This document shows, piece after piece, positions 1,604-42,126 of a DNA stretch of 42,378 bases. The stretch is taken from IMG/VR virus record IMGVR_UViG_3300007276_000095, positions 1 through 42,378 of that record; one strand, given 5' to 3'. The notes under the pieces are model-generated. The model saw only the letters and a program-made list of their open reading frames with translations. It made no database searches and was not told where the DNA came from. The position numbers and the translations under genes were made by a program. The stretch is from a virus. The stretch's first letter is position 1. The number at the start of each line of letters is the position of its first letter.

Positions 1604-2476
1604 TTATTTCTCACCACACTTTTTACTAGGATCGTTTACTTGCCTCCATTCTTCTTTCTGAAACCAATCTCTAAGTGTAGCGCCTTTCTTTCTAGCTCCT
1701 TTTACATTCGTTTTAGACGATCGTTTGTACTTACCACTTGCTCCCGCTGACTTCTTAGCACTAACAAGCTGTTGTTTTTTAGAAGATGATAATCCTTTAA
1801 TCTTAGCTGCTGGTAAACACGTTTTTGTAGTTCCCCCGCCTTTTTGTTTCTTTTTAATAGGGCTTGATTTCTTACAACTACCTTTAGATCCTTTAGCCGT
1901 ACCAGATACTCTTTCGTATCCTTTCCAACACTTCAAAGGACTGCTAGGCTTAATATGCTCGTACATGTCTTTACCCAGCTGTTCACCTAACTTACTGTCA
2001 GATTTATAATGAGCATGGGCCACGTTTCTACTATAAGATATATCTTTGCCGACTTTTATGAAGTCTTTGGCTAAAGTAGGATATTTATCTCCTAGAAGTT
2101 TAGCTATTAATATACCTTGAGCAGAATGACCCGACGGATAAGATGGTGTTTTCATTGAATCAAGTTCTTTGTCATCAAACTTTATATTGTTTTTCCTAGC
2201 AAGAACTTTAGGCCTAGGTCTATTGTGGTGTTTTTTTATTTTAAGTATAACTTTAGCAGATTCATCTAATATTTTATCTATATCAGATCCGTCTATAGTT
2301 ATATCTTTTTTCTTAGCTATTTTTTGAAAACTAGATTTAACGTCATCTTTTTCTTTAACAAACCTTTCATTAATAGGTATTTTATTCAACTCTTTTATTT
2401 CTTGAGTTGTTTGAAAAGAATCATCATTAGGAGGCTTCTTATCTAAGTACTTTTGTATGTTAAAGTCTTTAAACAT
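1604..2476 (-). CDS. Soluble PAP2-superfamily phosphatase with basic Cys-containing C-terminal modules
   Basis: All three PAP2 (acid phosphatase/haloperoxidase) motifs are present. Numbered from an upstream ATG at 2503 they are: K88-x6-R95-P96, P123-S-G-H126, and S158-R159-x5-H165-x3-D169. The two His and the Arg/Lys residues form the phosphate site in this family. There is no membrane segment, so this is a soluble enzyme rather than an integral lipid phosphatase. After residue 190 comes a very basic tail with CWKGYERV...GSCKK, SSPIKKK, CLPAAKIKGLSSS and DWFQKEEWRQV...CGEK, reminiscent of DUF5872-like modules. I prefer the ATG at 2476 because it overlaps the upstream stop as TAATG; the ATG at 2503 would add nine residues and a 28-bp overlap. 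It is the last gene of the late operon. The substrate is unknown. Confidence 0.85.
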   Translation of the reverse strand: MFKDFNIQKYLDKKPPNDDSFQTTQEIKELNKIPINERFVKEKDDVKSSFQKIAKKKDITIDGSDIDKILDESAKVILKIKKHHNRPRPKVLARKNNIKFDDKELDSMKTPSYPSGHSAQGILIAKLLGDKYPTLAKDFIKVGKDISYSRNVAHAHYKSDSKLGEQLGKDMYEHIKPSSPLKCWKGYERVSGTAKGSKGSCKKSSPIKKKQKGGGTTKTCLPAAKIKGLSSSKKQQLVSAKKSAGASGKYKRSSKTNVKGARKKGATLRDWFQKEEWRQVNDPSKKCGEK

Positions 2477-2775
2477 TATTTTTTTAATTGACCCTTGGTA
2501 CATCTAACACCCCAGCCAGAAGCATAAGCGCTAGGCCAAACTTTAAATTTCTTTTTAGCACGAGCTTTACATGAAGGGCTAATCTTACCTTTCATTGGTG
2601 ATTTCATCTTTACAGCCGTCTTCGGTCCACGACCTTCATTGTCAGGGTGGAATCTAGAAGACTTGTTCATCTCGCCTACTTCTCTACCTTGAGACTTAGC
2701 TACTTGCTCTTCAGGCGAAAGACTTTCGTCTTTACCTTGCATTTTAAACGGATTATTTTTTTGTACGTATGCCAT
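2476..2775 (-). CDS. KNNPF-tagged small basic protein with PSAYASG/Cys module
   Basis: This is a 99-residue, strongly basic protein. It begins MAYVQKNNPF, the decapeptide shared with two other small proteins of this window. The middle contains KSPMKGK. The C-terminal part (SCKARAKKKFKVWPSAYASG, then WGVRCTKG) is a short basic module with two Cys that I associate with small proteins of large marine phages. I cannot assign a biochemical activity. The charge suggests nucleic-acid binding, and the tag suggests delivery to a shared partner, possibly the virion. It sits between another tagged gene and the PAP2 gene, whose start overlaps this stop (TAATG). No catalytic motif or membrane segment is visible. 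Confidence 0.8.
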   Translation of the reverse strand: MAYVQKNNPFKMQGKDESLSPEEQVAKSQGREVGEMNKSSRFHPDNEGRGPKTAVKMKSPMKGKISPSCKARAKKKFKVWPSAYASGWGVRCTKGQLKK

Positions 2776-2785
2776 GATTTTTTAT

Positions 2786-3178
2786 TTAACAGTTCCACCT
2801 TCTTCTAGCGGCTTTACCTCTCTCGCCGGTCCAGCCTTTTGATCTAGCACAAAATGATTTTCTTCTATTAGCAGCTTTGCTACCAGGTTTTAGTTCAGAT
2901 GGTTTTTTAGTTACAGCGGTTTGAAGTTTACTACCTGGGTTGTTTCTTTTATATTCATTAACTCCTTTCTGTGTCATACCGCCTCCAGCAGCAGCACCTG
3001 TACCAGTTGGCTTAGCCTTGTTAAAGTTTTTACCAGGCCCGATAGTTCTACGTGGATCAGCCTTTTTAAACGGATTGTCTTTAGTTCTATCGTCACCCGG
3101 ATCACCACCCTGCGTAAAAGTTCTACGTCTACCACAGCTAGTTACGGGAAAAGGATTGTTTTTTTGTTTATACGCCAT
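2786..3178 (-). CDS. KNNPF-tagged small basic protein with FCARS...RRRWNC module
   Basis: This is a 130-residue, highly basic, Gly/Lys/Arg-rich and probably disordered protein. It starts MAYKQKNNPF and has a second related copy, KDNPFKK, near residues 34-40. The C-terminus, from about residue 107 (SFCARSKGW ... GKAARRRWNC), is a Cys-bracketed basic module unlike that of the downstream tagged gene. An NNPG sits near residue 80. No enzyme motif is visible. The combination of common tag and variable basic module suggests a DNA-binding virion or cargo protein, which is inference. It starts just inside the stop of the preceding fibre-associated gene. Confidence 0.8.
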   Translation of the reverse strand: MAYKQKNNPFPVTSCGRRRTFTQGGDPGDDRTKDNPFKKADPRRTIGPGKNFNKAKPTGTGAAAGGGMTQKGVNEYKRNNPGSKLQTAVTKKPSELKPGSKAANRRKSFCARSKGWTGERGKAARRRWNC

Positions 3179-6916: not shown

Positions 6917-9900
6917 TTAGTCATGCATATAACAGTACTTCTTACCTGACTGAGCCGACTTTTTACACTGAAGGCCTCTAGAAGTATATGCTTGACATTG
7001 ATTAGCTTCTTTTTCTTTTGCTTTTTTTTCTTTTTTCTCTTTCTTTTTTTCTTCTTTTACTTTATCTTTCGCCGCTTCAACCGCTTGTCTTCTTTCGTCT
7101 AAGAACACTGTATACTCATTATCTTTACCTTTGTTACGCACAACCTTTTCGCCAACGTTTAAATCCCAGGAGCTCCAACCTAACGCTAAAAATAACCTCT
7201 GTAGATTAGTATTATCTTGATTCATAGCTTCACGCAGGTTATCCATTTTACGTATAGCCCTAGCCATCGGGATGTTTGTAGTTGCCTCAACAACGTTACC
7301 TATAGCCGTCCAAGCAGGATTGTTATAATCCAGCATAGACATGCTATCCATAGCGTCTTTATTAAACTTCCTAGTAAGCATGGCGCTGTAAAGTTTTCTA
7401 GCTTTAGAACCTATCGGCGGAGACACGTTTAAAGCTTCAACAACTACTTGACCGTAATCTGCTCTAAAACCTTTTTCTTCTTGCTCTATGTATTCCATTA
7501 TAGTATTCTTAATAGTAGCTAAAGCAGCTCCATATATACCAGAGCCTCTTAGTAAAGAATCAAGCATACTGTTTAATATTCTTTGCTCTTTAATCTCTTC
7601 TTTGTCATCATCACTTTCAAAGGCCATTGCAAACAACGCGTTTTGCAAAGCGGCAAATATAAAGTTTTGCACAGCGCCGTAATAAAGTATCCTAGACACA
7701 TTACTTCTCCAGTCACCTCTACGGTTTATTAAATCGCCAGCTGCCTTCTTTATTAAACGATTATACTGCATCGGTGTATTAGCAAACGCAAGTATTATAC
7801 GGCCTAAGTTTGAAGCTTGCTGCTGTGATATACGGTCAGGTCTAGCGGACTGTTGTGTTTCTTCAGCTATTTCTCTAAAATCAAGCATAGCTTGTGACTC
7901 AGCGTCAGCTTGACTCATGCCTTGCTTTAAGTATTTGTTAATTCTATTTCTATAAAATGTAGCGCCACCAGAAGCGATAGCAAAACTATCCGCAACCTGC
8001 GTTGGAGTAAAACCTATTTTAAGCAGGTACCTAAGAGCCGCCATAGCTTTGTTTTTAGCTCCAGCTACAGCGCTAGCGAGCTCAGCTTCATTTACGTTAG
8101 TCGCCAAACCAGCTCTTCTGTTTTTCAAGAAGTCTGAATTAAACAAAAAAGAAAAGTCAGACCAATATTGTTTTTGGTTAGCAAAAGCTTTACCAGCTGC
8201 AAATATGTTGTTGTCTTCAAAGTTAATAAAGTTAACCGTAGATAATGTTTGCAGCACGGCAGATCTAGCGTTAAAGAACATAATAGCGCCAACAGAGCTG
8301 TTAATCCAATTATTCCACTGATTCTCAAACTTAGTTCTACCTTTAGGTCTATTTCTACCAGTCTCCATACGGTATAATATATCTTCTAAAGAAGATCTAA
8401 AGTCACTACCGTATATAGCCTCTATTTTGTTTAAGTTTTTTTCTGAAAATATTATGTCTTTATTTTCTAACCACTCTTGCAAAAACTGAGCTCTTGAAAC
8501 TTTATCTACTAGCTCTTGTAAGTCCATAGCTATATTACCAGTATCCCAGCCGTCAGTAGGCTCTACATATCCAGATTGTTGTTTTGTTATAGCGCTAATT
8601 CTATCAGCGTAAGCTCTCAGCGAAGGATCGTTTTTAACTAAGTTGATTAGTTGTTGTTTAGAGCTTTCAGCTAAACCAGGTATTTCATAGCCAGCTTTAG
8701 CGTAGAGATAAACTCTTATAGCAGCATCAAAAGTAAATCCTTTTACATCCGTTAACTTACCTAACTTCTTTTTAACATCTTTAAACTCTTTGTTTAAGGC
8801 TTTATACTGATCTCTAATACCTTGTTTCATTTGGCTCATCTCACGATCAGCTTTAGCGAAAGGCTTAACTAAATACTCTTCAAAGAATTTTATATCAGCA
8901 TTACCCTGCTCGCCCTTGCCAACAAAATACCGTAATAACCCCGTGAAATCTTCTGCAGAAGGTGGTACAAATAGTGTAAAGCCACCTTTGTTTTTTCCTC
9001 GCTTTCTAGCCTCAACCCTAGAAAATGTTTTTACAGCATCAACACCTTTAGTTCTTTCGAGCATGTTGTTAAACTCAGTGTCAACGTCTTTGCTAAACCT
9101 AACTTGAACAGACTTACCCTTAATGTCTAGTTGGTTAAACACATGTTGTACAGCTTCAACGTTTTGCATAGCGTCATCTACAAAGTACATATCATTGTAT
9201 CCTTCGGCGTACTTATTAAGCATCCAAGCAGCCTTGGCATCACCCGTGCTATTTCCTAAGCCAGTAATATTTTCTAAAGGTATATCTACACCTTGATCTT
9301 TTAAAAACTGATATATTGGACCGGCGGAAGCAGCAGGTCTAGCGGTTAATACATACACATTATCTGACCCATACTTTTTAATTTGATTCTTCATCTTTTG
9401 TAAAAGAGGACCAGGTGTTCCATCTACTACTTTATTAAACTCTGAAAAATCATACTCAGCACCTTGAGCAAGTAAGTCCGCCCCACGTAAAGCAAAGTCT
9501 TCAGCGTTGATTCTATCTTTTATATAGCCTTTCGTGAAGTCGTCCATTTCTTTAACGAACTCGGCTGGTAGCGCTTCTCCTTGTTTTAAGTTGTCTGTGT
9601 TTATTTCCACAAAGCCTTTAGCAGAGTATGGAAAAAATGTTACCATCTCTTTAAATGCTTTTTTGTTTTTCTTAGCTGACTCTATACTGTTTCTAACGGT
9701 AGCATCGGTTAGTCTTCTTTCAGATCTATTCGCGTTTCTTTCTAACGCTGTTTCTAACGAAGACTCAATGAACACTATCTGAACATCGTAACCGGCGTCT
9801 TTAAACTCTCTAGCCATACTTTCAAACTGAACGCCAACGGCACCAGTGCCATCGATCACAACACCATCGCCTTGACCTCTTAGTTTTGAAGCTTTATTCT

Positions 9901-12900
9901 TAGCTGCAACTGCTGCTTGACCTCCAAGCTCTCTCCACTTTTCAGCTTGCTCTCTAGTAAACTCATTCATATCTTTTGGTAAACCATTGTTTTTGGTTAA
10001 CCAGTCTAAAGCTATATCTTGATTTACGTATTTAAAGCCTTGCTTTCTTAAACCTAACTGATTTATAACAGTAGTTTTACCGGCGCCAGCGTTACCAGCT
10101 ATTAGTATAGCTTTTCTTTTTGGTTGAGGCTTACCACTTGGATTAGGCATTGTTAATCTAATACCAGATTTAGTAAAGGCTAATGTGTCGTCAAAGTCGA
10201 ACGTAGACATACCTCTTGGTTCAGCATCTCTACTCATAGCTTGAAAAGCTTGATCGGCCTTTTCTAATCTAGTCTCGCTAGTTGTTTTTACTTTGACAGG
10301 GTATCTACTTATATATTCGTTAAGCTTTTTGTTGGCTTGCTCTTGTGTTATTTGCCCAGAAAATATTTGAAATAATAAATCTTGCTGCATTGAAACAACG
10401 TTAGCGTTGCTATATAAAGAACTGTTTATTCCAACGTTATATTCTTGAGCAATTGTATTTCCATTAGCTAACACTATAAAGTTAGGGTTTATACCTCCAG
10501 CGTTGTTATTGACGTTAGGATTAAAATATCTAATCCAAGCAGGAACTTCACCGGTAAACACTTTAAACTGCCACTCTTTAGGTATTTGCGAAACGTAATT
10601 AAACTCTCCAAGCTTTTTAAGTAAGTTGTCGTATATCTTTGGAAGACCACCTTGCATGTAAGCTTTCATAGCGTTATCAATATACTGATCAACAACACCC
10701 ATCTTTGAAAGTGTAAATAAAATCTTGCCAAACTCTGTTGCTGGCTGCGTGTGCTCTTCTACGTTTTCTAAACCTAACGTATTATGAAAACCATATCTAG
10801 CACCTGTTCTCATGAAGTGCCCTTGGTTTACAGCTGAAGACTCTAGTAGTGCTCCAACAAAAGCTACGTTAGAAGACTCTTTCATTAAATCTTGCAGTAT
10901 AGACCAAACTTCCTTAAAACCTTGATCAGACTGATCTAACAGATCTTGATTGTTGCTAAACCACTCTTGAGCTTGCGCGTTTGTAAACTTACCATACTTA
11001 ACAGAAACTTTAGCCATAGCCGCAACGTTGCTAGACTCTGGAGCAAATTCAACTCCCTCCATAACAGCTTCAAATTGAGCTTTATTTGCAAACGCGTATT
11101 TAGGGCTAGCTGGCATTAAACTTAATTCGTAAGCTTTAAAGTTAGGGTTGTTATTTCTTACTTTTTTACCGTCTAGTAAAGTATATTCTTTTAATTTTTT
11201 CTTTGTCTTTTCTAACGTTACATTACCTTCAGTATCTACGTATAGCTGTCTACCGTTTTTGTCGTTTGTATATTCGTTTCCGTTTTCGTCAACGTTTATA
11301 TTTTTAGCGCCAGCCGCGTATAAGTTGCCACCGGTAAAAAACGATCTAGGTAATTCTTTAGCAGCAACCGTTGCTAACCAGTTTATGTAAGCGCCTCTAT
11401 CCTTACCGCTTATATCTAAAAGCGTAGCACCCATGCCTGTTATTATCTTAGGCCATGTTGGATCCATGTACGTTATAGCATCAGATACGTCTTTTGAAAA
11501 CAACACATCTGACATACCGTCTGCTATTTGAGCAGCAGAAGGATCAATAGTTCTAAGGGCTTGATTTGTGATTATCTTACCCATTAAGTTTGCCATAGCT
11601 AGCGCTCTAGCCGATGTGTTTCTATCTGTTCGATCAGCGACTCCTTCAACAATACCAAACACCTCTAGAAAGTCAGAGTCTAGTATATTTGTTTTTTTAA
11701 CCTGAGTTTTTAATCCGGCTTTAGTTTTAGCTCTTGAAGATCTTTTATTGTAAAAAGCATCCAATAAAGTTTTAGGCACGCCTGTAGCCTTACCTTCAGA
11801 GTCAAAGCCTTGTGGTAGCATGTCTATTAGCAAGCCTACGTTTCTTCTAACAAACATCTGCATGCTAGCTAACTCACTTTTAGAGAGGTTAGCAAGGTTT
11901 TTTAATTTTTTAACAGGTATGCCAGTTAAATTAGAAACTGTCTGCAAAGCGGCGTTAGGCACTTTTTTAAAATTAAGCATAACTTTAGGATCTATCCCAG
12001 CCGCCTCAATCTCTGCTAAAACTTCAGCTTGAATACCAAGTCTTTCAGCTACATTTATTAATTTAACTTTTCTTTCAGGCGCTTTAATCTCTGCTGTTTC
12101 TTCGGCTGCAACACCTCTAGCTTCAGTGACGTCATCTTCAAATTGCTCTTTTAATATTCTATTAGCAGACTCAATAGCTCTTGAAGGTAAATACTTATTT
12201 ATATAAGCGGCTAAAGGTACTCCTGAATTAGGATCGTAATCCCTTATCAAGTCGTATATACCTCTTTGACCTATTTCTATTTCGCTAATCATCATCTCTA
12301 AATCAAAGCCAGGTACTTCTCTATACTTGTTTGCTATTCTAGTTGTTATAGGTTTGAACAGTTGGAATATTTCAAACGCTCCGTCAACACCGCTAGTTTC
12401 ATAAAGATTTTGAACAGCATCAGACGCATCTTTTGATTCTGCCTCAAACTGCTCGGCGTTTTCTTCGCCGTCTTCTTCAGACATCATATCTCTAAACACT
12501 TGATCTATCTCTGCTATTTCTCCAGAAACTTTAAAACCGTCAACAGCTCCTATTCGCATAGCTTCGTTTAAAGTTCCGCTCTGTATACCTCTACTATAAT
12601 CTTCTAAAAAATTATAGACGTCCATAGGATTTTTAAACTTATAAGGTATACCAAGGTTCTTAAAAACTCTAGAAAACATTGCGCCAATTTTTTCAAATGT
12701 AGTTCTGTTATACTTCATTTGACCAGTAGCTATTGCATCAGCGACCAACGTTAATACCTCTTCAGCTTGTTTAGCGCTAGTAAGAGGTACTTGCCCCGCG
12801 GCGTTTGGATCTCTATACGCGTTAAGTCTATTTATAAACCTAGCATTATTTTTGGTGATAAACGGCTGAATATCTCCAAGCATGTTTAACAAAGAGTTTC

Positions 12901-15900
12901 CTAGAGCGTAGGCTGTGGTTGGATTATTTTGCAACGTTGTTCTTAGTACACCGTGCAAAAACTCGTGAGCCGCTACATTCACGCCTTCGTTAGTAGTTTT
13001 TTTCATAGCGTTAACGTATATGGTTTTACTACCATCTTTGTTTACTTTTATACTACCGAAAGATCCGTCCGCTTCTTGCCCAAATATTTGAACAAGAGTT
13101 CCGTTTGTAACTTCTACAACATTCATGTTTTCACCAAACATACTTTCTGCAAGATCTTTAACGTTTGCTATTGTAGTTTTAGATTGTTCTTTAGCTTGCT
13201 GCTTTATTATAGGCTTTAGTATTTCTTGTCTTTTAGTTTCAAGCTCTTGTATCTTTTCATCTATTTTTTTAGCGGTGTTTGTTTTTTCTTCAGCGCTAAT
13301 CATGGAAGATTCTTTAGCGTCAGCCTTATCATCTTCTAGTTGTTGTATTTTATCTTCTATAGATTCAACTTCATTTCTAGAATCAGAGTCTAAAGCTTCT
13401 ATAGCTTTGATCTCGTTGGCGGTTTTAATATCTGTAAAAGTAATTCTAGTGTTTTCATACTGAAGAGCGTCTGCGTTACCATCTTGCTCCATCATTGCTG
13501 AATACAGTGATAAAGCGCCTTTACCGTCATTCTTTATATACACCAATGGGTTTTCACCATTTGCTCTTCTTCTGTTGTACTCTTCTTGTAACTCTTGAAC
13601 CGTAGAGAAGTTTTCGCCGTCCATTCGATAAACTTTATTGTGTTTACCTTTTATGATCTTAGAGACCGTCCCTGGAGCCGAGAACATTACCTGCATAACA
13701 CCCATGGTTAAACCAGTTTCTTTCAAGAATTGAGAATCTAATCCTTCAAATAAGTCGTTGCCTTCAACTAGGTTTTGCAAAGGAAGGTTTATAATTTCTT
13801 CAGCCATCTCTCCAAACATGCCGTCAAACCCAACTTTATTTCCTATACTATTCATAAACTGACCGGTACCAGTCAATCCTTTCTTATTAAAGTATCTAGA
13901 CACTATAGTTCTTCGCAGCCACTCAGGATCGTTCAGCACATCATTTTTGATAAATTTTCCTAGCTTTGGAAATCCAGCGCCTAGTCTTTCTGTAAAATAT
14001 TCTAAAAAGTTAACGCCAAAAGCTTTAGCGAAAGCTTTATCAAAAGCCTCAACATCATAGTCACCGTTTTTATCAAGTGCATAGCCACCGTTGATTGAAA
14101 GTTGACTCATTATATCGTCGCCATCGCTAGTAATCATTAGCTTTGCTTGCGGTGTCATTCTCTCAAGAGTAGAGTCTAGATAGTTAGTAGGTATAACAGC
14201 CGACTGAGCACCGGCGGCCAGCACAACTGAAATACCGTCTATTATGTTTCCTTTGATAGTTCTTTTACTAACGTCTTCAATCAAGCCATCGTATATGCCT
14301 TCTTTTAACGTTCTTTCCAACTTATCTTTTACTACTTTTTTAGCACCAGTAAAAACGCCTCTAGTAAGATATATTTCAGCTACCCAAGGAAACATTTCAG
14401 CTAACATTTTACCAGAGTTATACGCTGTCTCACCTTTCGTAAGTTCATTAAACTTATTATCAGAAAGTTGCTTTGTTGCTAGCGAGCTCAATACAATCTG
14501 CTCAGCAGGACTTAGCTCTTCCCCGCTCTCTTTCTTTTTAAATAAACTATAAGCCTGTAAGGCGTCAAAAGTACTAGCAACACCCCCAACAATAGGTATA
14601 TAGTCAAGACCAGACTCTAATCCTAGCGCTCCTTGAAAAAACTTTGCAAAACCACTTTCCGCTAGCTTTTCAGGTCTTTGCAAAGCAACTTCTAGCTTGT
14701 CTTTCGCCATCTTGAGGTTGTTGTATTCAGAAGCCGCTTGCTCATACTGCTCCTTGGTGTACACTCCGTAGCTAGCTATATTAATCATGCCCGCCATGTC
14801 TACATTGTAAGAATCTACAATTGGTGTAACTCTTTCAAGCTCTTTGTCTATAGCTTCTAAAAGATCTTTAGAAACTTCATCTATGCCAAACCTTGTCATG
14901 TCACCACTAATATCGAAAGTCATGTCATTCCAAAACTTATGGTAGTACTCTGTTTTTCTATTTAGTATTTCTGTTTCATCTGTCATACCAGCTTGTTTCA
15001 AACCTATTTCTATGTTTGTCCAAGCATTATCTAGCATTAATCTTTTCGTGTCATTAGTAGCTGTGTCCCAGCCGTTTAATCTAAATTGCTTAGTTAGATC
15101 GTCATATTTTTCTCTACCAATTAAATCTGTTGGAGGTATGTAGTTTTGAAAAAACTCTATTTGCTTTCTTTGAAACTCTTTTTCGTTAGCAGAAACGTAG
15201 TCGTCATATCTAGCTCCAATATATTTGTTTAATTCTTGGTTAGCTTGCTCGCTGTATAGTCCACCTATCTCCTGCTGTTTAGCATTAACTTCAGCGGTAA
15301 ACATCTGTTGAACTTGCTCTTGGCTCATGTCGGCAAACTCTCCGTCTTGTTGTCTTTGTTGAAAAGATTGAAGAAGCGTCTCTTGAAAAGCGTCAAGTTC
15401 TATTTGCATTTCTTTTACATACTTTTGCTGTATGCCATTGTTTATAGCATCTATGTCTTTTTGGTACTGCTCTTTAAACCTGTCGTTAAATTCTATATTA
15501 TAGCTAGCCGCCCAGTCTTCGTACGCTTCGTTTTGATTTTTTTGTTTTCTATTTAAAAACTTTTCAGCGTCCATGTCAGACTCTTCCACAAAAAACTCTA
15601 CGCCATCTATTGATGTTCCGCTAGTTCTTTCTTGAAGCAAGCTCCAGTCTGACTTGTGGTTAGCGTACATGTTGTTAACTGTAGATAAAGCAAGGTCAAA
15701 GTCGTTGATAAAAGCTTGAGGGTCTTTTTCTATGGCTTCTTTTTCTTCCTCAGTCAACAACCTACCATCAGAAAGTTTTTTTGCTTGCTCTTGCAAATTA
15801 ACTTTATACAAGTTTGCTTCAAATACGTTAATGTCCTCTTCTATAACAGCGCTTTCGCTGTCGGTATAACTGTAAACTATTTCGTCTTCTCCAGCAGGAT

Positions 15901-16390
15901 TATAGATAGTTTTTCTGTTTATGTTTTTAAAAGTAGTATTATCACCTACCTCTTCGTCTACGATTTCTTCACCATCAAACTCTTGCTCTACTATAGAGCT
16001 TTTTTCAATAACTGGCTTCTCGTCTGCTAATTCATCTTTTTCTTTATATACTTCTAAAAGATCTTGCTTCTGCTCCTCATGCTGTAAAAGATTAGACATG
16101 TCTGTTGATACGTTAGATATGCTAGTCTGATCTTGAGCTTGAGGTTCTAAAAGTTCGTAAGGTTTAAACTCATGATTTGCTTTTGTTAAACCTGGTAACT
16201 CCAACGAAGTATTTACCGAGGTGGATGCCGTACTTCCTGTGCTCACACTCGCATCCGGTGTTTGTGAGCTGTTCGACTTTCCCAGGCCCATCTCTTCAAT
16301 GTAATCTTCAACTTCCATTTCAGACTGCTTAGCAAAGTCTAGTACTTCTTTTTCTGAAAGTTCTTTGCCTCCTTGCGTTATATAAGACAT
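6917..16390 (-). CDS. Giant polyvalent internal virion protein (HExxH, sigma-like, HAD/kinase, membrane and zinc modules)
   Basis: This 3157-residue protein is probably packaged and injected. Modules in order are: an acidic Gln/Glu-rich N-terminal third with amphipathic segments (about 590-620 and 700-760); a HExxH metallopeptidase-like motif HEFLH (1142-1146); a segment like sigma-70 region 2 (DYDPNSGVPLAAYINKYL, 1384-1401); a HAD phosphatase motif I DFDDTL (2065-2070); a P-loop kinase GNAGAGKT (2099-2106) with VVIDGTG and an Arg-rich lid; and later HAD motifs VLTARP (Thr2349), Lys2386 and VDDAMQN (Asp2405). Then come a phage polyvalent-protein C-terminal region with a hydrophobic stretch near 2900-2925, a Lys/Glu tract, and a terminal C-x9-C-x10-C-x2-H module (3132-3156). 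It follows two internal virion protein genes. Motifs are read directly; packaging, injection and enzyme activities are inferred. Confidence 0.85.
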   Translation of the reverse strand: MSYITQGGKELSEKEVLDFAKQSEMEVEDYIEEMGLGKSNSSQTPDASVSTGSTASTSVNTSLELPGLTKANHEFKPYELLEPQAQDQTSISNVSTDMSNLLQHEEQKQDLLEVYKEKDELADEKPVIEKSSIVEQEFDGEEIVDEEVGDNTTFKNINRKTIYNPAGEDEIVYSYTDSESAVIEEDINVFEANLYKVNLQEQAKKLSDGRLLTEEEKEAIEKDPQAFINDFDLALSTVNNMYANHKSDWSLLQERTSGTSIDGVEFFVEESDMDAEKFLNRKQKNQNEAYEDWAASYNIEFNDRFKEQYQKDIDAINNGIQQKYVKEMQIELDAFQETLLQSFQQRQQDGEFADMSQEQVQQMFTAEVNAKQQEIGGLYSEQANQELNKYIGARYDDYVSANEKEFQRKQIEFFQNYIPPTDLIGREKYDDLTKQFRLNGWDTATNDTKRLMLDNAWTNIEIGLKQAGMTDETEILNRKTEYYHKFWNDMTFDISGDMTRFGIDEVSKDLLEAIDKELERVTPIVDSYNVDMAGMINIASYGVYTKEQYEQAASEYNNLKMAKDKLEVALQRPEKLAESGFAKFFQGALGLESGLDYIPIVGGVASTFDALQAYSLFKKKESGEELSPAEQIVLSSLATKQLSDNKFNELTKGETAYNSGKMLAEMFPWVAEIYLTRGVFTGAKKVVKDKLERTLKEGIYDGLIEDVSKRTIKGNIIDGISVVLAAGAQSAVIPTNYLDSTLERMTPQAKLMITSDGDDIMSQLSINGGYALDKNGDYDVEAFDKAFAKAFGVNFLEYFTERLGAGFPKLGKFIKNDVLNDPEWLRRTIVSRYFNKKGLTGTGQFMNSIGNKVGFDGMFGEMAEEIINLPLQNLVEGNDLFEGLDSQFLKETGLTMGVMQVMFSAPGTVSKIIKGKHNKVYRMDGENFSTVQELQEEYNRRRANGENPLVYIKNDGKGALSLYSAMMEQDGNADALQYENTRITFTDIKTANEIKAIEALDSDSRNEVESIEDKIQQLEDDKADAKESSMISAEEKTNTAKKIDEKIQELETKRQEILKPIIKQQAKEQSKTTIANVKDLAESMFGENMNVVEVTNGTLVQIFGQEADGSFGSIKVNKDGSKTIYVNAMKKTTNEGVNVAAHEFLHGVLRTTLQNNPTTAYALGNSLLNMLGDIQPFITKNNARFINRLNAYRDPNAAGQVPLTSAKQAEEVLTLVADAIATGQMKYNRTTFEKIGAMFSRVFKNLGIPYKFKNPMDVYNFLEDYSRGIQSGTLNEAMRIGAVDGFKVSGEIAEIDQVFRDMMSEEDGEENAEQFEAESKDASDAVQNLYETSGVDGAFEIFQLFKPITTRIANKYREVPGFDLEMMISEIEIGQRGIYDLIRDYDPNSGVPLAAYINKYLPSRAIESANRILKEQFEDDVTEARGVAAEETAEIKAPERKVKLINVAERLGIQAEVLAEIEAAGIDPKVMLNFKKVPNAALQTVSNLTGIPVKKLKNLANLSKSELASMQMFVRRNVGLLIDMLPQGFDSEGKATGVPKTLLDAFYNKRSSRAKTKAGLKTQVKKTNILDSDFLEVFGIVEGVADRTDRNTSARALAMANLMGKIITNQALRTIDPSAAQIADGMSDVLFSKDVSDAITYMDPTWPKIITGMGATLLDISGKDRGAYINWLATVAAKELPRSFFTGGNLYAAGAKNINVDENGNEYTNDKNGRQLYVDTEGNVTLEKTKKKLKEYTLLDGKKVRNNNPNFKAYELSLMPASPKYAFANKAQFEAVMEGVEFAPESSNVAAMAKVSVKYGKFTNAQAQEWFSNNQDLLDQSDQGFKEVWSILQDLMKESSNVAFVGALLESSAVNQGHFMRTGARYGFHNTLGLENVEEHTQPATEFGKILFTLSKMGVVDQYIDNAMKAYMQGGLPKIYDNLLKKLGEFNYVSQIPKEWQFKVFTGEVPAWIRYFNPNVNNNAGGINPNFIVLANGNTIAQEYNVGINSSLYSNANVVSMQQDLLFQIFSGQITQEQANKKLNEYISRYPVKVKTTSETRLEKADQAFQAMSRDAEPRGMSTFDFDDTLAFTKSGIRLTMPNPSGKPQPKRKAILIAGNAGAGKTTVINQLGLRKQGFKYVNQDIALDWLTKNNGLPKDMNEFTREQAEKWRELGGQAAVAAKNKASKLRGQGDGVVIDGTGAVGVQFESMAREFKDAGYDVQIVFIESSLETALERNANRSERRLTDATVRNSIESAKKNKKAFKEMVTFFPYSAKGFVEINTDNLKQGEALPAEFVKEMDDFTKGYIKDRINAEDFALRGADLLAQGAEYDFSEFNKVVDGTPGPLLQKMKNQIKKYGSDNVYVLTARPAASAGPIYQFLKDQGVDIPLENITGLGNSTGDAKAAWMLNKYAEGYNDMYFVDDAMQNVEAVQHVFNQLDIKGKSVQVRFSKDVDTEFNNMLERTKGVDAVKTFSRVEARKRGKNKGGFTLFVPPSAEDFTGLLRYFVGKGEQGNADIKFFEEYLVKPFAKADREMSQMKQGIRDQYKALNKEFKDVKKKLGKLTDVKGFTFDAAIRVYLYAKAGYEIPGLAESSKQQLINLVKNDPSLRAYADRISAITKQQSGYVEPTDGWDTGNIAMDLQELVDKVSRAQFLQEWLENKDIIFSEKNLNKIEAIYGSDFRSSLEDILYRMETGRNRPKGRTKFENQWNNWINSSVGAIMFFNARSAVLQTLSTVNFINFEDNNIFAAGKAFANQKQYWSDFSFLFNSDFLKNRRAGLATNVNEAELASAVAGAKNKAMAALRYLLKIGFTPTQVADSFAIASGGATFYRNRINKYLKQGMSQADAESQAMLDFREIAEETQQSARPDRISQQQASNLGRIILAFANTPMQYNRLIKKAAGDLINRRGDWRSNVSRILYYGAVQNFIFAALQNALFAMAFESDDDKEEIKEQRILNSMLDSLLRGSGIYGAALATIKNTIMEYIEQEEKGFRADYGQVVVEALNVSPPIGSKARKLYSAMLTRKFNKDAMDSMSMLDYNNPAWTAIGNVVEATTNIPMARAIRKMDNLREAMNQDNTNLQRLFLALGWSSWDLNVGEKVVRNKGKDNEYTVFLDERRQAVEAAKDKVKEEKKKEKKEKKAKEKEANQCQAYTSRGLQCKKSAQSGKKYCYMHD

Positions 16391-16406: not shown

Positions 16407-18143
16407 TTAAAATGTGTATACTTTAGGTTTTTTCGTATCAGGATCTATTACATAATTACCGTTACTTAACTGTTTGTAATACGTTCCATCATCTCTTTTT
16501 ACCCAAGTGCTATTAGGATTTCTATAGTCTGGTATATTGTCTTTACCCTCTTTGATAGCGACATCCCAATTAGCCTTAGCGAGCTCTTGATCTTTTTTCT
16601 TTTTAGCAGCTATTCTTTCAGCAGAGCTAGTAGAGTTTTGTGGATTTTTATTATTGTAGTTTAAATCATATTCTCCCGTACCGTAAGCGCTCGGCGTTGA
16701 CTTTCCGTTTGCTTTATGCATGTCGTTGTGAACCCCTCTAAGTCTTTCTACGTAGTAAGCTTTTAATTCGTCTCTTAACCACTCTCCAATGTTTTGGTTT
16801 TCGTCGTACGGCTCGCTCCAATTAGCCCCGGCAGAATACTTGCTAATATCAACGTCTGGATTCTCTAAAGTAAAATCGTCAATCCAAGTTTTTCCATCAC
16901 CGTCTAAATCGTCATACATCCAAGAAACCATTACTTTTTTATTAGGATCTTGTTTTGTTCCAAAAAGTTGATTTACTAAGCTTTCAGCTTTACCTTGACT
17001 AAAAGGCATGTTTTCTTTTTGATTTTTAGCAACCTCTTCTCTGTATTTCGCGAAAGCACCTAAACCATCTTCATCTCTTTCGAAAATAGTTTCGTTGAGT
17101 TGGTCTAAAGTAACTATGCTTGTTTGACCGCTAGCATCCATGTTACCAACCACAAACTGTATCTGCCCGTTTGGACTTATTAACATATCAGCTTGACCAC
17201 TGTGTATTTGATTTAAGTAGTCATACTCTGGCGTATCAAGCGTAGCGTTAGAGTATCTAAATCTTCCGTCATTGTTTCCTTCGCCTTCACCCTTACCATG
17301 CATGTTAGCCCAATCATCTCTATTGGTCTGTACCTCTGTCATCTGTGTATTTAAAGCTTTCCACTTGTCTTCGATAGCTATTATCTCAGACTTTATTTGT
17401 TTAAACTTAGGGCTATTAGTATTTAAGTTTTCGGCTTTAGCTTTTAGATCGCTCATTGCTTTTTTCTGCTCAGATAAGTACTGAGTGCAAGCGTTGGTAC
17501 CGTTTTTAAACTTATTAAAACCATTGTTAGTTTCCTCAACGCTATATTGATCAAGCTCTTTTTGAGCCTTTTTTCTAACGCTTTCCTTCATTAAAGCAAC
17601 TCTATCTACTAAATCATTTACGCCGCTAAAAGCGTTATACTGCTTTCCAGCTTGATTCATACGTCTAACACCAGCTATTAAAGTTGCGTCTGCTCTACCA
17701 TACTTCATTGGGCTTTTCATAAAAGCCATAGTTCCAGTATTTCCTTTACTAAAATCAGGTATAAACCTGTCTCTATTCTCTAGCTTATCATCTTTTAGCG
17801 TTTTCTTTTTTATTTTTTCTTCTTTCTTTAGAGCTTTCTTTTTCTCTCGCGCTTGTTGTTTATCGTATTTGTCTTCATACGATCGAAGCTTTTTTAACTC
17901 TCTTTCTTCTTTTCTAGCTTCTCTTTTTTCTGCTCTTTCTTCTTGCTTTGCAGCTACTTTAGCTTGATAAGCCTCGCTTTGCTTGTAGTCTCTAATCAAA
18001 GCTTGTAATCCATCTAAAGCGCTACTAACGCCAGTAATACCCATGTTCTCTACAGGAAGACCATTAGCTAGAGCTTGTTGAACTTGAAGTTCTCTAGCAT
18101 TTCTTTCTTCCATGTATCTTTCGTAATAACTCTTCTCAGCCAT
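16407..18143 (-). CDS. Internal virion protein with N-terminal coiled coil and EF-hand-like loop
   Basis: This 578-residue protein has a highly charged coiled-coil N-terminus (about residues 60-130, very rich in Lys/Glu/Arg). A KSPMKYGR motif follows near 150, then a helical middle and a mixed C-terminal half. A loop at about 412-423 (DLDGDGKTWIDD) has the D-x-D-x-D-G calcium-binding pattern of EF-hand or dockerin loops, with Asp instead of Glu at position 12. It lies between the 237-residue Ala/Gln-rich protein and the giant protein, the usual place for ejection or pilot proteins in short-tailed phages. I recognise no named family. The ejection-protein role is inference from context and helical content. 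Confidence 0.75.
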   Translation of the reverse strand: MAEKSYYERYMEERNARELQVQQALANGLPVENMGITGVSSALDGLQALIRDYKQSEAYQAKVAAKQEERAEKREARKEERELKKLRSYEDKYDKQQAREKKKALKKEEKIKKKTLKDDKLENRDRFIPDFSKGNTGTMAFMKSPMKYGRADATLIAGVRRMNQAGKQYNAFSGVNDLVDRVALMKESVRKKAQKELDQYSVEETNNGFNKFKNGTNACTQYLSEQKKAMSDLKAKAENLNTNSPKFKQIKSEIIAIEDKWKALNTQMTEVQTNRDDWANMHGKGEGEGNNDGRFRYSNATLDTPEYDYLNQIHSGQADMLISPNGQIQFVVGNMDASGQTSIVTLDQLNETIFERDEDGLGAFAKYREEVAKNQKENMPFSQGKAESLVNQLFGTKQDPNKKVMVSWMYDDLDGDGKTWIDDFTLENPDVDISKYSAGANWSEPYDENQNIGEWLRDELKAYYVERLRGVHNDMHKANGKSTPSAYGTGEYDLNYNNKNPQNSTSSAERIAAKKKKDQELAKANWDVAIKEGKDNIPDYRNPNSTWVKRDDGTYYKQLSNGNYVIDPDTKKPKVYTF

Positions 18144-32194: not shown

Positions 32195-33307
32195 TTATTT
32201 TCGTTTTTTAAATTTAAACGAAGGAGTTGTATCTAAATCAAGAGCTTTTACTCTCATACCGTTCGCTTGAACCTCTCCATGAGAAGTCCTAGGCGTCATA
32301 TCGATATTTTTAGTTTTAGCCACCGAATTCTTCAAAGCGTCAGCTTTGCCTTGTTCGTAAAAGTGTTGTGCTAAAGAGTCGGCGTTCATAGCCGCATACA
32401 ATGCTTTGTGATAACCCGCCGCGTCGGTAATCTTACCTTCACTATCAATAAAATTATTTATAAAGTTATTGATGTCGCTTTGAGTTTCTTTTACTTTGCT
32501 AGCGTCTTTAACGTTGTACTTAAACGTTTTGTCTTCTACTTGGTATTCGAAACCTTCGAAACCGTCGTTGAAAACACTATCTGTTCTCTCAACAAAAGCG
32601 TTTGAGCGTTCTTCAGCAATCTTTTGATTCTGTTCAGCTTCTTCGTTATATCGATTAAAGAAGTCCATTGCTTTCTGATATTCATCATTGACAATAGGCT
32701 TAGCCTTAATCTCATCATAATACTTAGACTTTTGCCCGTCTAAATAGGCCTTAGCTTCGGCAACCTGCTCTTTTAAAGCTAATTTTTTTCTTTTAACATC
32801 ACGATCTTCGTCAACTTCTTCATCAAAAGAAAATTGATCGTCCATCATGAACTCTATTTCTTCAGCCGATAAATGCGGCTTTGTTGTTTTGTAGTATTCT
32901 TGTAGAGCTGTGTGGTTATCCATTTCGTCATAATTTTGGTTTAACCTAACATAATCCTCTACACTACCTCCAGTTTCGTTAACAAAGTTAACTAACTTCT
33001 CTATATTCTCAGGTAAAGGATTACCTGTTTCTTGAGATTCTTGAATAGCTTCATTAGCTGTTTCAATAACGTCGTCTACTTTTTCTTCAACCGTTTGTTC
33101 CTCTTGAGGAGTTTCTACTTCGCTTACAAGTTCTTTTAAAGCCTCATTAGGCTCTTCTTGAACAGCTTCTTCTATTTCATTTAGCTTATTCATGTCTAAG
33201 ACAATAGTACCATCTTCTTTGTAAGAGACTGGTGACTCTTGTTCTACGACTTCTTCTTGTGGCTGCTCGTTTACTTGCTGCTCTTCAATGTTTTCATTTT
33301 CTTCCAT
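32195..33307 (-). CDS. Acidic scaffolding protein
   Basis: This 370-residue protein is extremely rich in Glu/Gln in its first 100 residues (QVNEQPQEEVVEQESPV and similar). A helical coiled-coil middle follows (KKLALKEQVAEAKAYLDGQK), then a basic C-terminal tail (SFKFKKRK). Acidic, helical and basic-tailed is the usual make-up of tailed-phage scaffolds, where the tail contacts the MCP. Position between portal and MCP is the standard scaffold position. No protease domain or cleavage site is evident, so a separate maturation protease, or scaffold exit without cleavage, is implied. Confidence 0.82.
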   Translation of the reverse strand: MEENENIEEQQVNEQPQEEVVEQESPVSYKEDGTIVLDMNKLNEIEEAVQEEPNEALKELVSEVETPQEEQTVEEKVDDVIETANEAIQESQETGNPLPENIEKLVNFVNETGGSVEDYVRLNQNYDEMDNHTALQEYYKTTKPHLSAEEIEFMMDDQFSFDEEVDEDRDVKRKKLALKEQVAEAKAYLDGQKSKYYDEIKAKPIVNDEYQKAMDFFNRYNEEAEQNQKIAEERSNAFVERTDSVFNDGFEGFEYQVEDKTFKYNVKDASKVKETQSDINNFINNFIDSEGKITDAAGYHKALYAAMNADSLAQHFYEQGKADALKNSVAKTKNIDMTPRTSHGEVQANGMRVKALDLDTTPSFKFKKRK

Positions 33308-37975: not shown

Positions 37976-38250
37976 TATTTAGATCTACCTTCGGCAAAGC
38001 CTTTAAAAACTTTCTCTTTTTTCTCCTCAATAACCTTACCTTCGAGTAAAGCTTGTTCTTCTTGTATACGATTAAGTATCTCAAAGGCATCGAATATTGC
38101 GAGTTTCTTTGTAGCAGCAGCGTTCTTAAGTCTATCGGCAGTAATATCATCACCACTATCAACGATAGCTTCCTTAGCAACTTTAATAAGCTCTTCAACA
38201 GCTCTGTGCCCAGCTTGGATTATACTCTTCTTCGTTTCCTTGATATTCAT
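37975..38250 (-). CDS. Terminase small subunit (putative)
   Basis: This 91-residue, entirely helical protein (AGHRAVEELIKVAKEAIVDS, then RLKNAAATKKLAIFDAFEIL) is directly upstream of and overlapping the large subunit. Size, helix-turn-helix-like N-terminal half and Lys/Glu-rich C-terminal helix fit small terminases that recognise DNA for packaging. The ATG overlaps the preceding GroES-like gene by 56 bases. There is no direct family signature, so the call rests mainly on position. Confidence 0.75.
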   Translation of the reverse strand: MNIKETKKSIIQAGHRAVEELIKVAKEAIVDSGDDITADRLKNAAATKKLAIFDAFEILNRIQEEQALLEGKVIEEKKEKVFKGFAEGRSK

Positions 38251-38785
38251 ATTTAATTGTAATAAAATGATTCATTATTCTATACAGTCTCTGGCCGTCT
38301 ACCACAAACTCATACTCTGAGTTAGGTCTAAACCCCACAAGATCTCCTACTTGATGTTCACCGTCAGAATACTTAACAATACCTACCAAAGGTCTTTCTT
38401 GATCAACATTAAATTCATCAATAGCTTTTATAGGTTTCACAAAGCTGTACCCTTTAGTAGGTTTGTATTTATCGTTTCTTTTGTAGAGAAAAATTTGATC
38501 TATAGAAACTATGTATATACCTTCTTTAAAAAAGTTTTTGCTATTTCTTTCTTTACCTTTAACATCTAGCCATCTTCTAAAAACATTATGATGAACAGTT
38601 ACAATATCACCGGGCTGTATGTCATACTCTCCTACCATAGGAACACTTAAAACTCTAGCCTCTCTATTAACGAACTGATGGTTGAAGTTTTCAGAATTTA
38701 ATATTAATTCTTTACCGTCTACGCTTGCTGTGTTATTGTATCTACCGCCAACAGGCTCTATTACGAATCCGTACAAACTTTTCAT
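38195..38785 (-). CDS. Tandem GroES-like (co-chaperonin) protein
   Basis: This 196-residue protein appears to have two GroES-like beta barrels. The first is residues about 40-105 (EYDIQPGDIVTVHHNVFR ... GIYIVSIDQIFLY) and the second about 112-180 (SFVKPIKAI ... GIVKYSDGE ... VGDLVGFRPNSEYEF, then VDGQRLYRIMNHFITIKYE). The GIV, GDxVxF and D-G-x-x-LYR-x-x-x-x-I pattern is that of GroES/Cpn10. The mobile-loop sequence typical of chaperonin contact is not obvious. Phage co-chaperonins such as T4 gp31 replace GroES for folding the capsid protein, and the gene lies in the morphogenesis cluster just before terminase. Similarity is by pattern, so moderate confidence. Confidence 0.62.
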   Translation of the reverse strand: MKSLYGFVIEPVGGRYNNTASVDGKELILNSENFNHQFVNREARVLSVPMVGEYDIQPGDIVTVHHNVFRRWLDVKGKERNSKNFFKEGIYIVSIDQIFLYKRNDKYKPTKGYSFVKPIKAIDEFNVDQERPLVGIVKYSDGEHQVGDLVGFRPNSEYEFVVDGQRLYRIMNHFITIKYEYQGNEEEYNPSWAQSC

Positions 38786-40461: not shown

Positions 40462-40884
40462 TTATTTTTCTTTTATTTGTTCGTTTTTCTTTGAACTTCC
40501 GCCGAAGAAGAAGTCTATTATTGTATTTACCTTAGCACTCATAGCGCCAAATATTGTTGATATAAAGCTAATTTCAAATTCACCTAACTCTATAGTTTTT
40601 GTGACGAAGTAATTAAACATTACAAACGTAATACCAAAATAAGCTACTGTAAATAATGTTGCTAATACTTTTTGGATAATAGCATCGTCTTTATAAAGAT
40701 CACGTGCAGATTTACGATCTTCAACTTCTTTTGCAAAAGCTTCACGTTCTGCATCAAGAAGTAGCTTTTTAAGAGCAAGCTTAGCTTCGTCGCGTTCTTT
40801 GTCTGTAGTAATAACTTTATCAAGTATTCCCTCAGCGTTATCTACTACTTTACCTAATATTCCTCCAAGCAAGTTGTTTATCAT
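40462..40884 (-). CDS. Holin of the GTA_holin_3TM type
   Basis: This 140-residue protein has an amphipathic N-terminus (MINNLLGGILGKVVDNAEGI) and a long charged helix (AKLALKKLLLDAEREAFAKE, then VEDRKSARDLY). One clear hydrophobic span follows (about 76-95, ATLFTVAYFGITFVMFNYFV), then a second weaker span (about 105-128) ending in FFFGGSSKKNEQ. This order and the FFGGSS end match the GTA_holin_3TM family (PF11351), which is common in marine phages. Such holins permeabilise the inner membrane at lysis. It overlaps the tagged basic gene upstream by four bases (ATGA). It is far from the other lysis-like genes at 5-7 kb. Confidence 0.8.
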   Translation of the reverse strand: MINNLLGGILGKVVDNAEGILDKVITTDKERDEAKLALKKLLLDAEREAFAKEVEDRKSARDLYKDDAIIQKVLATLFTVAYFGITFVMFNYFVTKTIELGEFEISFISTIFGAMSAKVNTIIDFFFGGSSKKNEQIKEK

Positions 40885-41138
40885 TTTTTCTTGTTCTTCT
40901 TGTTGTTCATTGCACCGCCAACTTGATCGCTAAACGTTGGCACAGCGCCTACGTGAGCGTCTGAGTCAGGATGTGGACCTTTTTTAATAGACTTAGGTCT
41001 TGCATCCATCATTCCTTTTGGTTTAGCTGGTCCTTTACCCATAGCAATGTTATCATTCATTTCTTCTTTTTTGGCATCACCAACCTGGCCTTTGTGATAA
41101 CCTTTTCTAAACGGATTGTTTTTTTGCTTGAAAGCCAT
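40881..41138 (-). CDS. KNNPF-tagged small basic protein
   Basis: This 85-residue basic protein starts MAFKQKNNPFRKG, the third copy of the shared N-terminal tag. The rest is Lys/Gly/Pro/Asp-rich and likely disordered (AMGKGPAKPKGMMDARPKSI), ending in a Lys-rich tail (MNNKKNKKK). No Cys module is present, unlike the two tagged proteins near 3 kb. It lies between the mini HExxH gene and the holin, overlapping the latter by ATGA. Virion targeting is inferred from the shared tag. Confidence 0.78.
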   Translation of the reverse strand: MAFKQKNNPFRKGYHKGQVGDAKKEEMNDNIAMGKGPAKPKGMMDARPKSIKKGPHPDSDAHVGAVPTFSDQVGGAMNNKKNKKK

Positions 41139-41140
41139 AT

Positions 41141-41500
41141 TTATTTCTTTTTTTCAGCACGCTTAGCAGCCTTCTCCCAAGGAAAATCCATACTTCCTTC
41201 TTCTGACCACTTGCCATTATACCTTATTTTACCATTAGCTCTTGGGTACGTCTTACCGTTATGTCTAACGTAATCATCGCCATACGACAGCTTACCAGAC
41301 TTCATATCATCTAGGTGTTTACCCTCGTGATTTATAACTCTTTTTTCAAGAGCACTGCCTTTAGGTACAGACTTATCAATATAAATAGATCCGTCCATAT
41401 TAGCTTCACCTAATATACCCTTGCCTAATTTTTTACGAAATATAGGTGTACTCTTTGAGCTTCTAATTTTTCTACTTTCACTACCCAGTTTAAAACCCAT
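41141..41500 (-). CDS. Mini HExxH metallopeptidase-like protein
   Basis: This 119-residue protein has the zinc-protease motif HEGKH (58-62) in VINHEGKHLDDMKSG. Asp64/Asp65 and a C-terminal Glu (WSEEGS, about 99-103) are possible third ligands. The segment GKGILGEANMDGSIYIDKS precedes it and is conserved in my memory of related marine phage genes. The N-terminus MGFKLGSESRK is short and basic. It is far smaller than typical metalloproteases, so enzyme activity is uncertain. It may be a maturation protease or a virion zinc protein. It overlaps the upstream stop by one base. Confidence 0.7.
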   Translation of the reverse strand: MGFKLGSESRKIRSSKSTPIFRKKLGKGILGEANMDGSIYIDKSVPKGSALEKRVINHEGKHLDDMKSGKLSYGDDYVRHNGKTYPRANGKIRYNGKWSEEGSMDFPWEKAAKRAEKKK

Positions 41501-42126
41501 TAAGCTATATTTTTTTTGTTTTTAGGCTTCTTAGTTGCTATTTTTTTATTTTTAGGCTTGTCTACTTTTTTGTGAGCAACTTTTTTAGCTTCATCGCTGG
41601 CTTTTTCTTTAGCTATATTTTTAGGTGCTTGTTTAACCGTGTCTTTAGCTATTTTCTTTGCGGTTACTTTAGCTGTCTTACCGGCAACTTTTTCAGCTTT
41701 ACTAAGTTTTATTGCATCAGCGGTCTTGTCGGTTGTTTTAGCTACTTTAGCTACGTCAGCTACAGCATCAGCTCCTTTAATAGCCTTAGCACCTTTAGCC
41801 GCTAGCTTAGCTCCTCCAACAGCAAGACCTGCACCCGGTATCATAGCCGCTGCGTTTATAGCTGCATCAGCCGCGTGCCTTTTAGCACCAGCGTCATCGC
41901 CTTTGTATTTAGCGTAACCTGCTCTACCAGCTGACAAAGCAGTGTTAGCAGCGTCTGCAAAATTACCTACAACAGGTATCATACCAGCCCCAGTTAAAGC
42001 TGTACCTACGTTATCTAAAGCTGAGCTCCAACTAAACTTGACTGGTGATTCAGTTTGTCTTGAGTTGGGTTTACCAGCTTGTCTAGTAGCTTTACCAAGG
42101 TTTTGATTTTTCATTTTAAACGCCAT
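41500..42126 (-). CDS. Ala/Lys-rich protein with histone-like C-terminal tail
   Basis: This 208-residue protein begins MAFKMKNQNLGKATRQ, a looser version of the tag on three other proteins, and contains TESPVKFSW. Residues about 38-110 have Gly/Ala-rich hydrophobic segments (GTALTGAGMIPVVGNFADAA, then AAMIPGAGLAVGGAKLAAKG) that look membrane-active. Residues 115-208 are a Lys/Ala-rich, histone H1-like tail ending KKPKNKKNIA. It could be a virion-packaged DNA-binding or membrane-inserting protein. No catalytic motif is seen. The function is not known. Confidence 0.72.
   Translation of the reverse strand: MAFKMKNQNLGKATRQAGKPNSRQTESPVKFSWSSALDNVGTALTGAGMIPVVGNFADAANTALSAGRAGYAKYKGDDAGAKRHAADAAINAAAMIPGAGLAVGGAKLAAKGAKAIKGADAVADVAKVAKTTDKTADAIKLSKAEKVAGKTAKVTAKKIAKDTVKQAPKNIAKEKASDEAKKVAHKKVDKPKNKKIATKKPKNKKNIA

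Follow-up and report, generated by a model that had tools for sequence, protein, structure and literature searches.

In phage T4, the 10 N-terminal residues of the capsid targeting sequence (CTS) are the sole sequence common to diverse internal proteins and suffice to load foreign proteins (PMC3012670, PMC9026906). Encapsulin cargo-loading peptides are comparable in function, being short motifs that bring unrelated cargo into an HK97-fold shell, that of bacterial nanocompartments rather than of phage heads. In crAss001, whose virion architecture is related to that expected here, about 5.5 MDa of cargo protein is held in head and tail, and gp45, gp46, gp47, gp49 and gp50 are stored there, according to the excerpts considered of the published account (PMC10172136); these are large proteins, and the same excerpts describe no shared loading peptide. 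An earlier note on the present DNA proposed that a decapeptide shared by otherwise unrelated proteins is a portable address label and knew of no characterised phage system using one, a statement that the T4 internal proteins contradict (PMC3012670, PMC9026906). The likeness to IPI, IPII, IPIII (and Alt) is twofold: about 10 N-terminal residues are common to unrelated, mostly small basic late proteins, and the bodies of the T4 proteins are quickly swapped among related phages (PMC3012670, PMC9026906), as the tagged bodies described below appear to do.

The window, the whole stretch of 42,378 nucleotides analysed here, is 42 kb of viral DNA with a single late block on the minus strand. By terminase and portal, its nearest relatives are a Manatee Spring phage, Flavobacterium elemoviruses, and phi38:1 and Calle of the Callevirus group. 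Three minus-strand ORFs start with MAFKQKNNPF, MAYKQKNNPF and MAYVQKNNPF and have no common body, which can be read directly from the ORFs as the earlier note had done; the internal KDNPFKK that it saw is present in the DUF6321 protein, and the looser starts at the right end (MAFKMKNQNLGK, MGFKLGS) are real and belong to the commonest form of the tag, MAFKMKG-x-P-[MF]. The pattern MA[YF]xQKNNPF, taken by the note as the tag itself, is a genuine subtype of it. The tags and motif copies of the window are the following.

42106..42126, minus strand: canonical tag MAFKMKN, ORF 41500-42126, 208 aa, start MAFKMKNQNLGK
41483..41500, minus strand: tag version MGFKLG of the HExxH protein 41141-41500, start MGFKLGSESRK
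41315..41329, minus strand: HEGKH (HExxH) signature of this metallopeptidase-like candidate cargo; H58, E59 and H62 are invariant in 41 homologs
41109..41138, minus strand: tag MAFKQKNNPF, ORF 40881-41138, 85 aa, start MAFKQKNNPFRKGY; body conserved in, and known only from, a few relatives
17703..17729, minus strand: MAFMKSPMK within the 578-aa ejection-type protein 16407-18143
3149..3178, minus strand: tag MAYKQKNNPF, ORF 2786-3178, 130 aa, start MAYKQKNNPFPVTS; DUF6321 body (PF19846, E 1.8e-11)
3062..3082, minus strand: internal tag copy KDNPFKK of the DUF6321 protein, aligned with the N-terminal tag of a shorter relative, MPYKQLNNPFKKAEPRRTIG (G015)
2746..2775, minus strand: tag MAYVQKNNPF, ORF 2476-2775, 99 aa, start MAYVQKNNPFKMQG; C-terminal KFKVWPSAYASGWGVRC module
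2584..2616, minus strand: internal copy VKMKSPMKGKI immediately preceding the WPSAYASG module; its counterpart is the N-terminal MAFKMKGAPYKKGIS of 55-aa relatives
1931..1942, minus strand: SPLK in the PAP2-fusion protein 1604-2503; in separate relatives the same stretch comes after the N-terminus (MYDITSKFAKNSPLPCWKGYERVPG)
1853..1864, minus strand: SPIK in the same protein, ahead of the KGGGTTKTCLPAAK module, which sits behind MAYNQKNNPFKK in relatives

The PAP2-fusion ORF unites a PAP2 phosphatase domain (E 9.5e-7) with a CLPAAK module, the two being unfused in several relatives. Most relatives encode a member of the HExxH family immediately upstream of holin/terminase; the best PDB matches of the window member are the minigluzincins selecase and abylysin, both weak (E 0.06 by sequence, 0.14 by fold), and no homologs were found in phage records. 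Other genes of the window encode a GroES-like co-chaperonin (38195-38785; PHROG 13932, E 2.7e-15), shortly upstream of the terminase and kept across the clade, and a 3157-aa ejection-type protein (6917-16390) in which residues 2090-2300 are ATPase/polynucleotide-kinase-like. A plus-strand ORF (128-1264), broken at the contig end, is by eye a candidate ribonucleotide reductase C-terminus.

The tag proved to be widespread. The 17-nt QKNNPF core (CARAARAAYAAYCCNTT) has exactly three copies in the record, and a reversed-pattern control none. A codon-degenerate MA[FY]xQKNNPF pattern hit 76 viral-contig stretches, and all 78 matches were ORF starts, ahead of different bodies; with MA[FY]KMK, 30 related records yielded 48 matches (control 0), on one strand only within each record, and the MAFKMKGxxP form was found in at least 120 viral stretches. 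Among 1650 proteins (665 body clusters) from loci none of which had been selected for the tag, AFKM was the top N-terminal tetrapeptide, at 34 places against about 0.1 expected. Single linkage of the bodies at E<1e-4 gave 122 groups; we speak of roughly 100 families, since modules in common chained the largest group together and homology may go unseen among short singletons. Up to 7 ORFs per phage carry the tag. A tagged ORF was present in 18 of 36 terminase-selected loci (>=10 kb), and the tag was absent from the stretches examined of the cultured relatives elemovirus, phi38:1 and MW202828. The related phages L302 and L315 carry another version on several proteins (MKSKSPF, MNSKSPF, MKSNSPF and MTSNSPF). 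Searching 85,000 prokaryote genomes (257 Gb) gave 27 matches, not above chance, in tiny ORFs, at internal sites and in unrelated genes, and an origin of the tag from a host or prophage was rejected on this ground. A tblastn search of phages with a synthetic tag peptide found no match, a weak search owing to low-complexity filtering. A Pfam scan of 65 tagged families returned DUF5872, DUF6321, one weak match and nothing else, and a literature search found no paper on the tag peptide strings or DUF6321 and nothing relevant on DUF5872.

Across 178 representatives the consensus was M-A-[FY]-K-[MLQ]-K-[GN]-x-P-[MFL], in which F3, M/L/Q5, P9 and F/M/L10 are conserved; positions 2-6 were set by the search expression and positions 7-10 were free, these being mainly G/N, F/S/P/N, P/S and M/F/L. 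Ser and Asn alternate at one motif position, and a reading as phosphorylation site was rejected for this reason. Nor is the tag an SPKK-type minor-groove motif ([ST]-P-[KR]-[KR]), since Pro is followed mainly by M/F/L and the place of Ser can be taken by Asn.

Comparison of homologous bodies revealed that the tag is modular. DUF6321 bodies start with MAYxQKNNPF, MAFKMTGWSPY, MAYIQNGSPF or MPYKQLNNPF in different phages, and the WPSAYASG body, common to PHROG 27331 and the end of ORF 2476-2775, likewise stands behind differing versions. Cyanophages and pelagiphages have DUF6321 and WPSAYASG modules that are the same bodies as those of the two window proteins, and these matches extend over the body alone, not the tag; the DUF6321 module adjoins the terminase large subunit gene in cyanophage S-N03 and lies near that gene in Venkman, a phage of Methylophilales (S-N03/Venkman loci L223 and L224). 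Copies of the tag also recur within proteins, ahead of further modules. The internal KDNPFKKADPRRTIG of the window DUF6321 protein is the counterpart of the G015 N-terminal tag, and a 55-aa relative consists of MAFKMKGAPYKKGIS and the WPSAYASG module only, where the window protein has AVKMKSPMKGKIS well downstream of its N-terminal tag. A further motif was found in residues 13-70 of 140 of 409 tagged proteins (shuffles: mean 22, maximum 35), and tags can be followed by arrays, for instance KSPMDKSPMDKSPMD or KSSM repeats; tandem KSPMD or KSSM repeats were seen in the tagged proteins G003:49152-49604 and G005:11769-12992. In structure models, pLDDT is below 50 for residues 1-16 of the HExxH protein and for most of residues 1-35 of the DUF6321 protein, with more confident structure behind, so that tags apparently lie in N-termini predicted to be disordered. 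The tagged proteins have a median length of 124 aa and a median net charge of +11. The description of them as small basic proteins fits the 78% that are net positive and fails for the other 22%; several tagged bodies, e.g. the HExxH family, are not basic.

In 16 long records the tags form two late-strand islands, one upstream of holin/terminase and the other after the giant ejection-type protein or the fibres, which together flank the virion module (0-7 tags per record by our count); a sister group (G008 and G023) has one tag or none. Three observations link the tag to the virion. First, gp040 of Cellulophaga phage phi4:1, annotated as structural from MS/MS, has an N-terminal domain that a tagged 82-aa family matches (49% identity, E 3e-6); the match covers the body only, gp040 itself starting with MAIRKKYKRG, without the tag. 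Gene order suggests that gp040 takes the position of crAss001 cargo; crAss001 gp45 has neither the tag nor the gp040 N-terminal domain, and the N-terminus of gp46 likewise differs in lacking the motif. Second, SP[FLMTA]K lies within residues 1-45 of 7 of 35 distinct ejection-type proteins (related by homology or synteny to gp99-gp101 of phi38:1, whose structural annotation rests on similarity), being absent near the N-terminus in the other 28, vs 1 of 292 proteins from eight further families of the virion module (among them terminase, scaffold and GroES-like protein); Fisher's test gives p = 7e-7, an optimistic value because the expression was chosen after examples had been seen and shared descent is not corrected. 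No motif enrichment was found in capsid, portal and terminase genes. Third, the 578-aa protein of the window, which belongs to the ejection-type group, contains MAFMKSPMK, and in two of three homologs M-[KR]-S-P-[MI]-K is found at a similar position (KMRSPIK, PMRSPIK). Another small basic protein, phi38:1 gp080 (L081 12493-12798), is annotated as structural by similarity to a further Cellulophaga phage.

The reading that we prefer, at a probability of about 0.5, is that M-A-[FY]-K-[MLQ]-K-x-x-P-[FLM] is a portable disordered linear motif serving as a virion-cargo address akin to the T4 CTS. Small late proteins whose bodies are otherwise unrelated bear the tag, and a common binding site, which may lie on the acidic scaffold, the inner capsid surface, the portal or the large ejection proteins, would capture it during head assembly. 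The tagged proteins would thereby become enclosed in the capsid or the tail-barrel cargo zone and enter the host together with the DNA, where the exchangeable bodies may act as early-infection effectors or DNA-condensing proteins. As for the earlier idea of a portable address, there is strong support for a protein-level peptide borne by unrelated bodies, strict N-terminal position has to be given up, and packaging is the best available explanation of evidence that is indirect. More tentatively, uncultured crAss-like marine phages may use a common cargo code, [FY]-K-[MLQ]-K ... [SN]-P-[FLM], by which roughly 100 unrelated effector families are swapped in the virion payload and internal copies mark each module. 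As to the docking partner, the scaffold-like protein of the window (32195-33307) is strongly acidic (net -43) and has homologs ending FKFKIK or LKxK. The FKFKIK end in the tag-rich group (FKxK in 58 of 76) suggested that tags imitate the scaffold; this idea failed a co-variation test, as contigs with LKxK scaffolds also carry F-type tags and lack L-type ones.

Differences from the T4 CTS are that the marine tag has another sequence, no gp21-type processing site, and internal and tandem copies, and that it occurs in crAss-like podovirus relatives, not in T4-like myoviruses. Prohead proteases cleave at L/IxE-type sites. The same rule is given in PMC9026906, and the tag does not end in such a site (consensus positions 7-10). 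No S78 prohead protease was found in 13 records, which may be incomplete, by a search that detected its controls; an S77 search of records with the same limit gave no matches and its controls were likewise silent. The misfits in sequence, processing site and N-terminal confinement place the marine tag outside the T4 family.

The main rival to a cargo address is a motif by which late proteins stay in the cell and bind one host protein, such as polymerase, ribosome, chaperonin or membrane machinery. The tags are disordered, repeated and lineage-variable, as is often the case for host-directed linear motifs, but their late-strand placement flanking the virion genes, the motif in ejection-type proteins and the tagged body within an MS-proven virion protein make this unlikely. 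Somewhat less probable again is nonspecific binding to packaged DNA or acidic scaffold through a basic unit, K-[SN]-P-[FLM]-K, that recurs along the proteins and of which the tag is one instance. The arrays behind tags and the charges (median net +11 for tagged proteins, -32 for the scaffold-like protein) speak for such a condensing role, whereas conservation of F3, M/L/Q5, P9 and F/M/L10 indicates a specificity beyond charge, 22% of tagged proteins lack a net positive charge, and Pro is followed by a hydrophobic residue, in contrast to SPKK DNA-binding repeats.

It was also considered that the 5' DNA is kept for initiation or for recombination of cargo genes, with an inert peptide. Codon 2 is GCA in 72% of tags vs 29% in bodies, which indicates that some DNA-level selection acts too, and tag DNA is 80% identical between families. 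Against this, the 30 nt upstream are only 41% identical on average, Phe3, Gly7 and Pro9 use varied synonymous codons (Phe3 usage tracking that of the bodies), internal copies lie away from the start, and capsid, portal and terminase genes are not enriched; we regard this reading as very improbable. In the window, the codons for Ala2 (GCT/GCG/GCA), Tyr (TAT/TAC), Asn7 (AAC/AAC/AAT) and Pro9 (CCG/CCT/CCG) differ as the earlier note had said, and the 30 nt upstream are dissimilar. Its conclusion that the identity is selected at protein level agrees with a portable peptide of varied codons and needs qualification at codon 2. Least probable of all, by a little, is that the tag and its internal copies are cleavage sites at which a protease of the phage, perhaps the HExxH protein, separates modules: copies do lie at module junctions and the HExxH family is present in most relatives, but the HExxH protein is itself tagged, and both the S78 search and the absence of an acidic L/IxE-type site from the consensus argue against processing.

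Should the tag prove to be a cargo address, genome sequence could reveal what an abundant group of marine phages carries as payload, each tagged ORF being a candidate injected protein, and these candidates would include many unannotated families. Such a short peptide would also be usable for loading proteins into phage particles. The strategy of the T4 internal proteins would then extend to crAss-like virions, whose cargo loading lacks an explanation.
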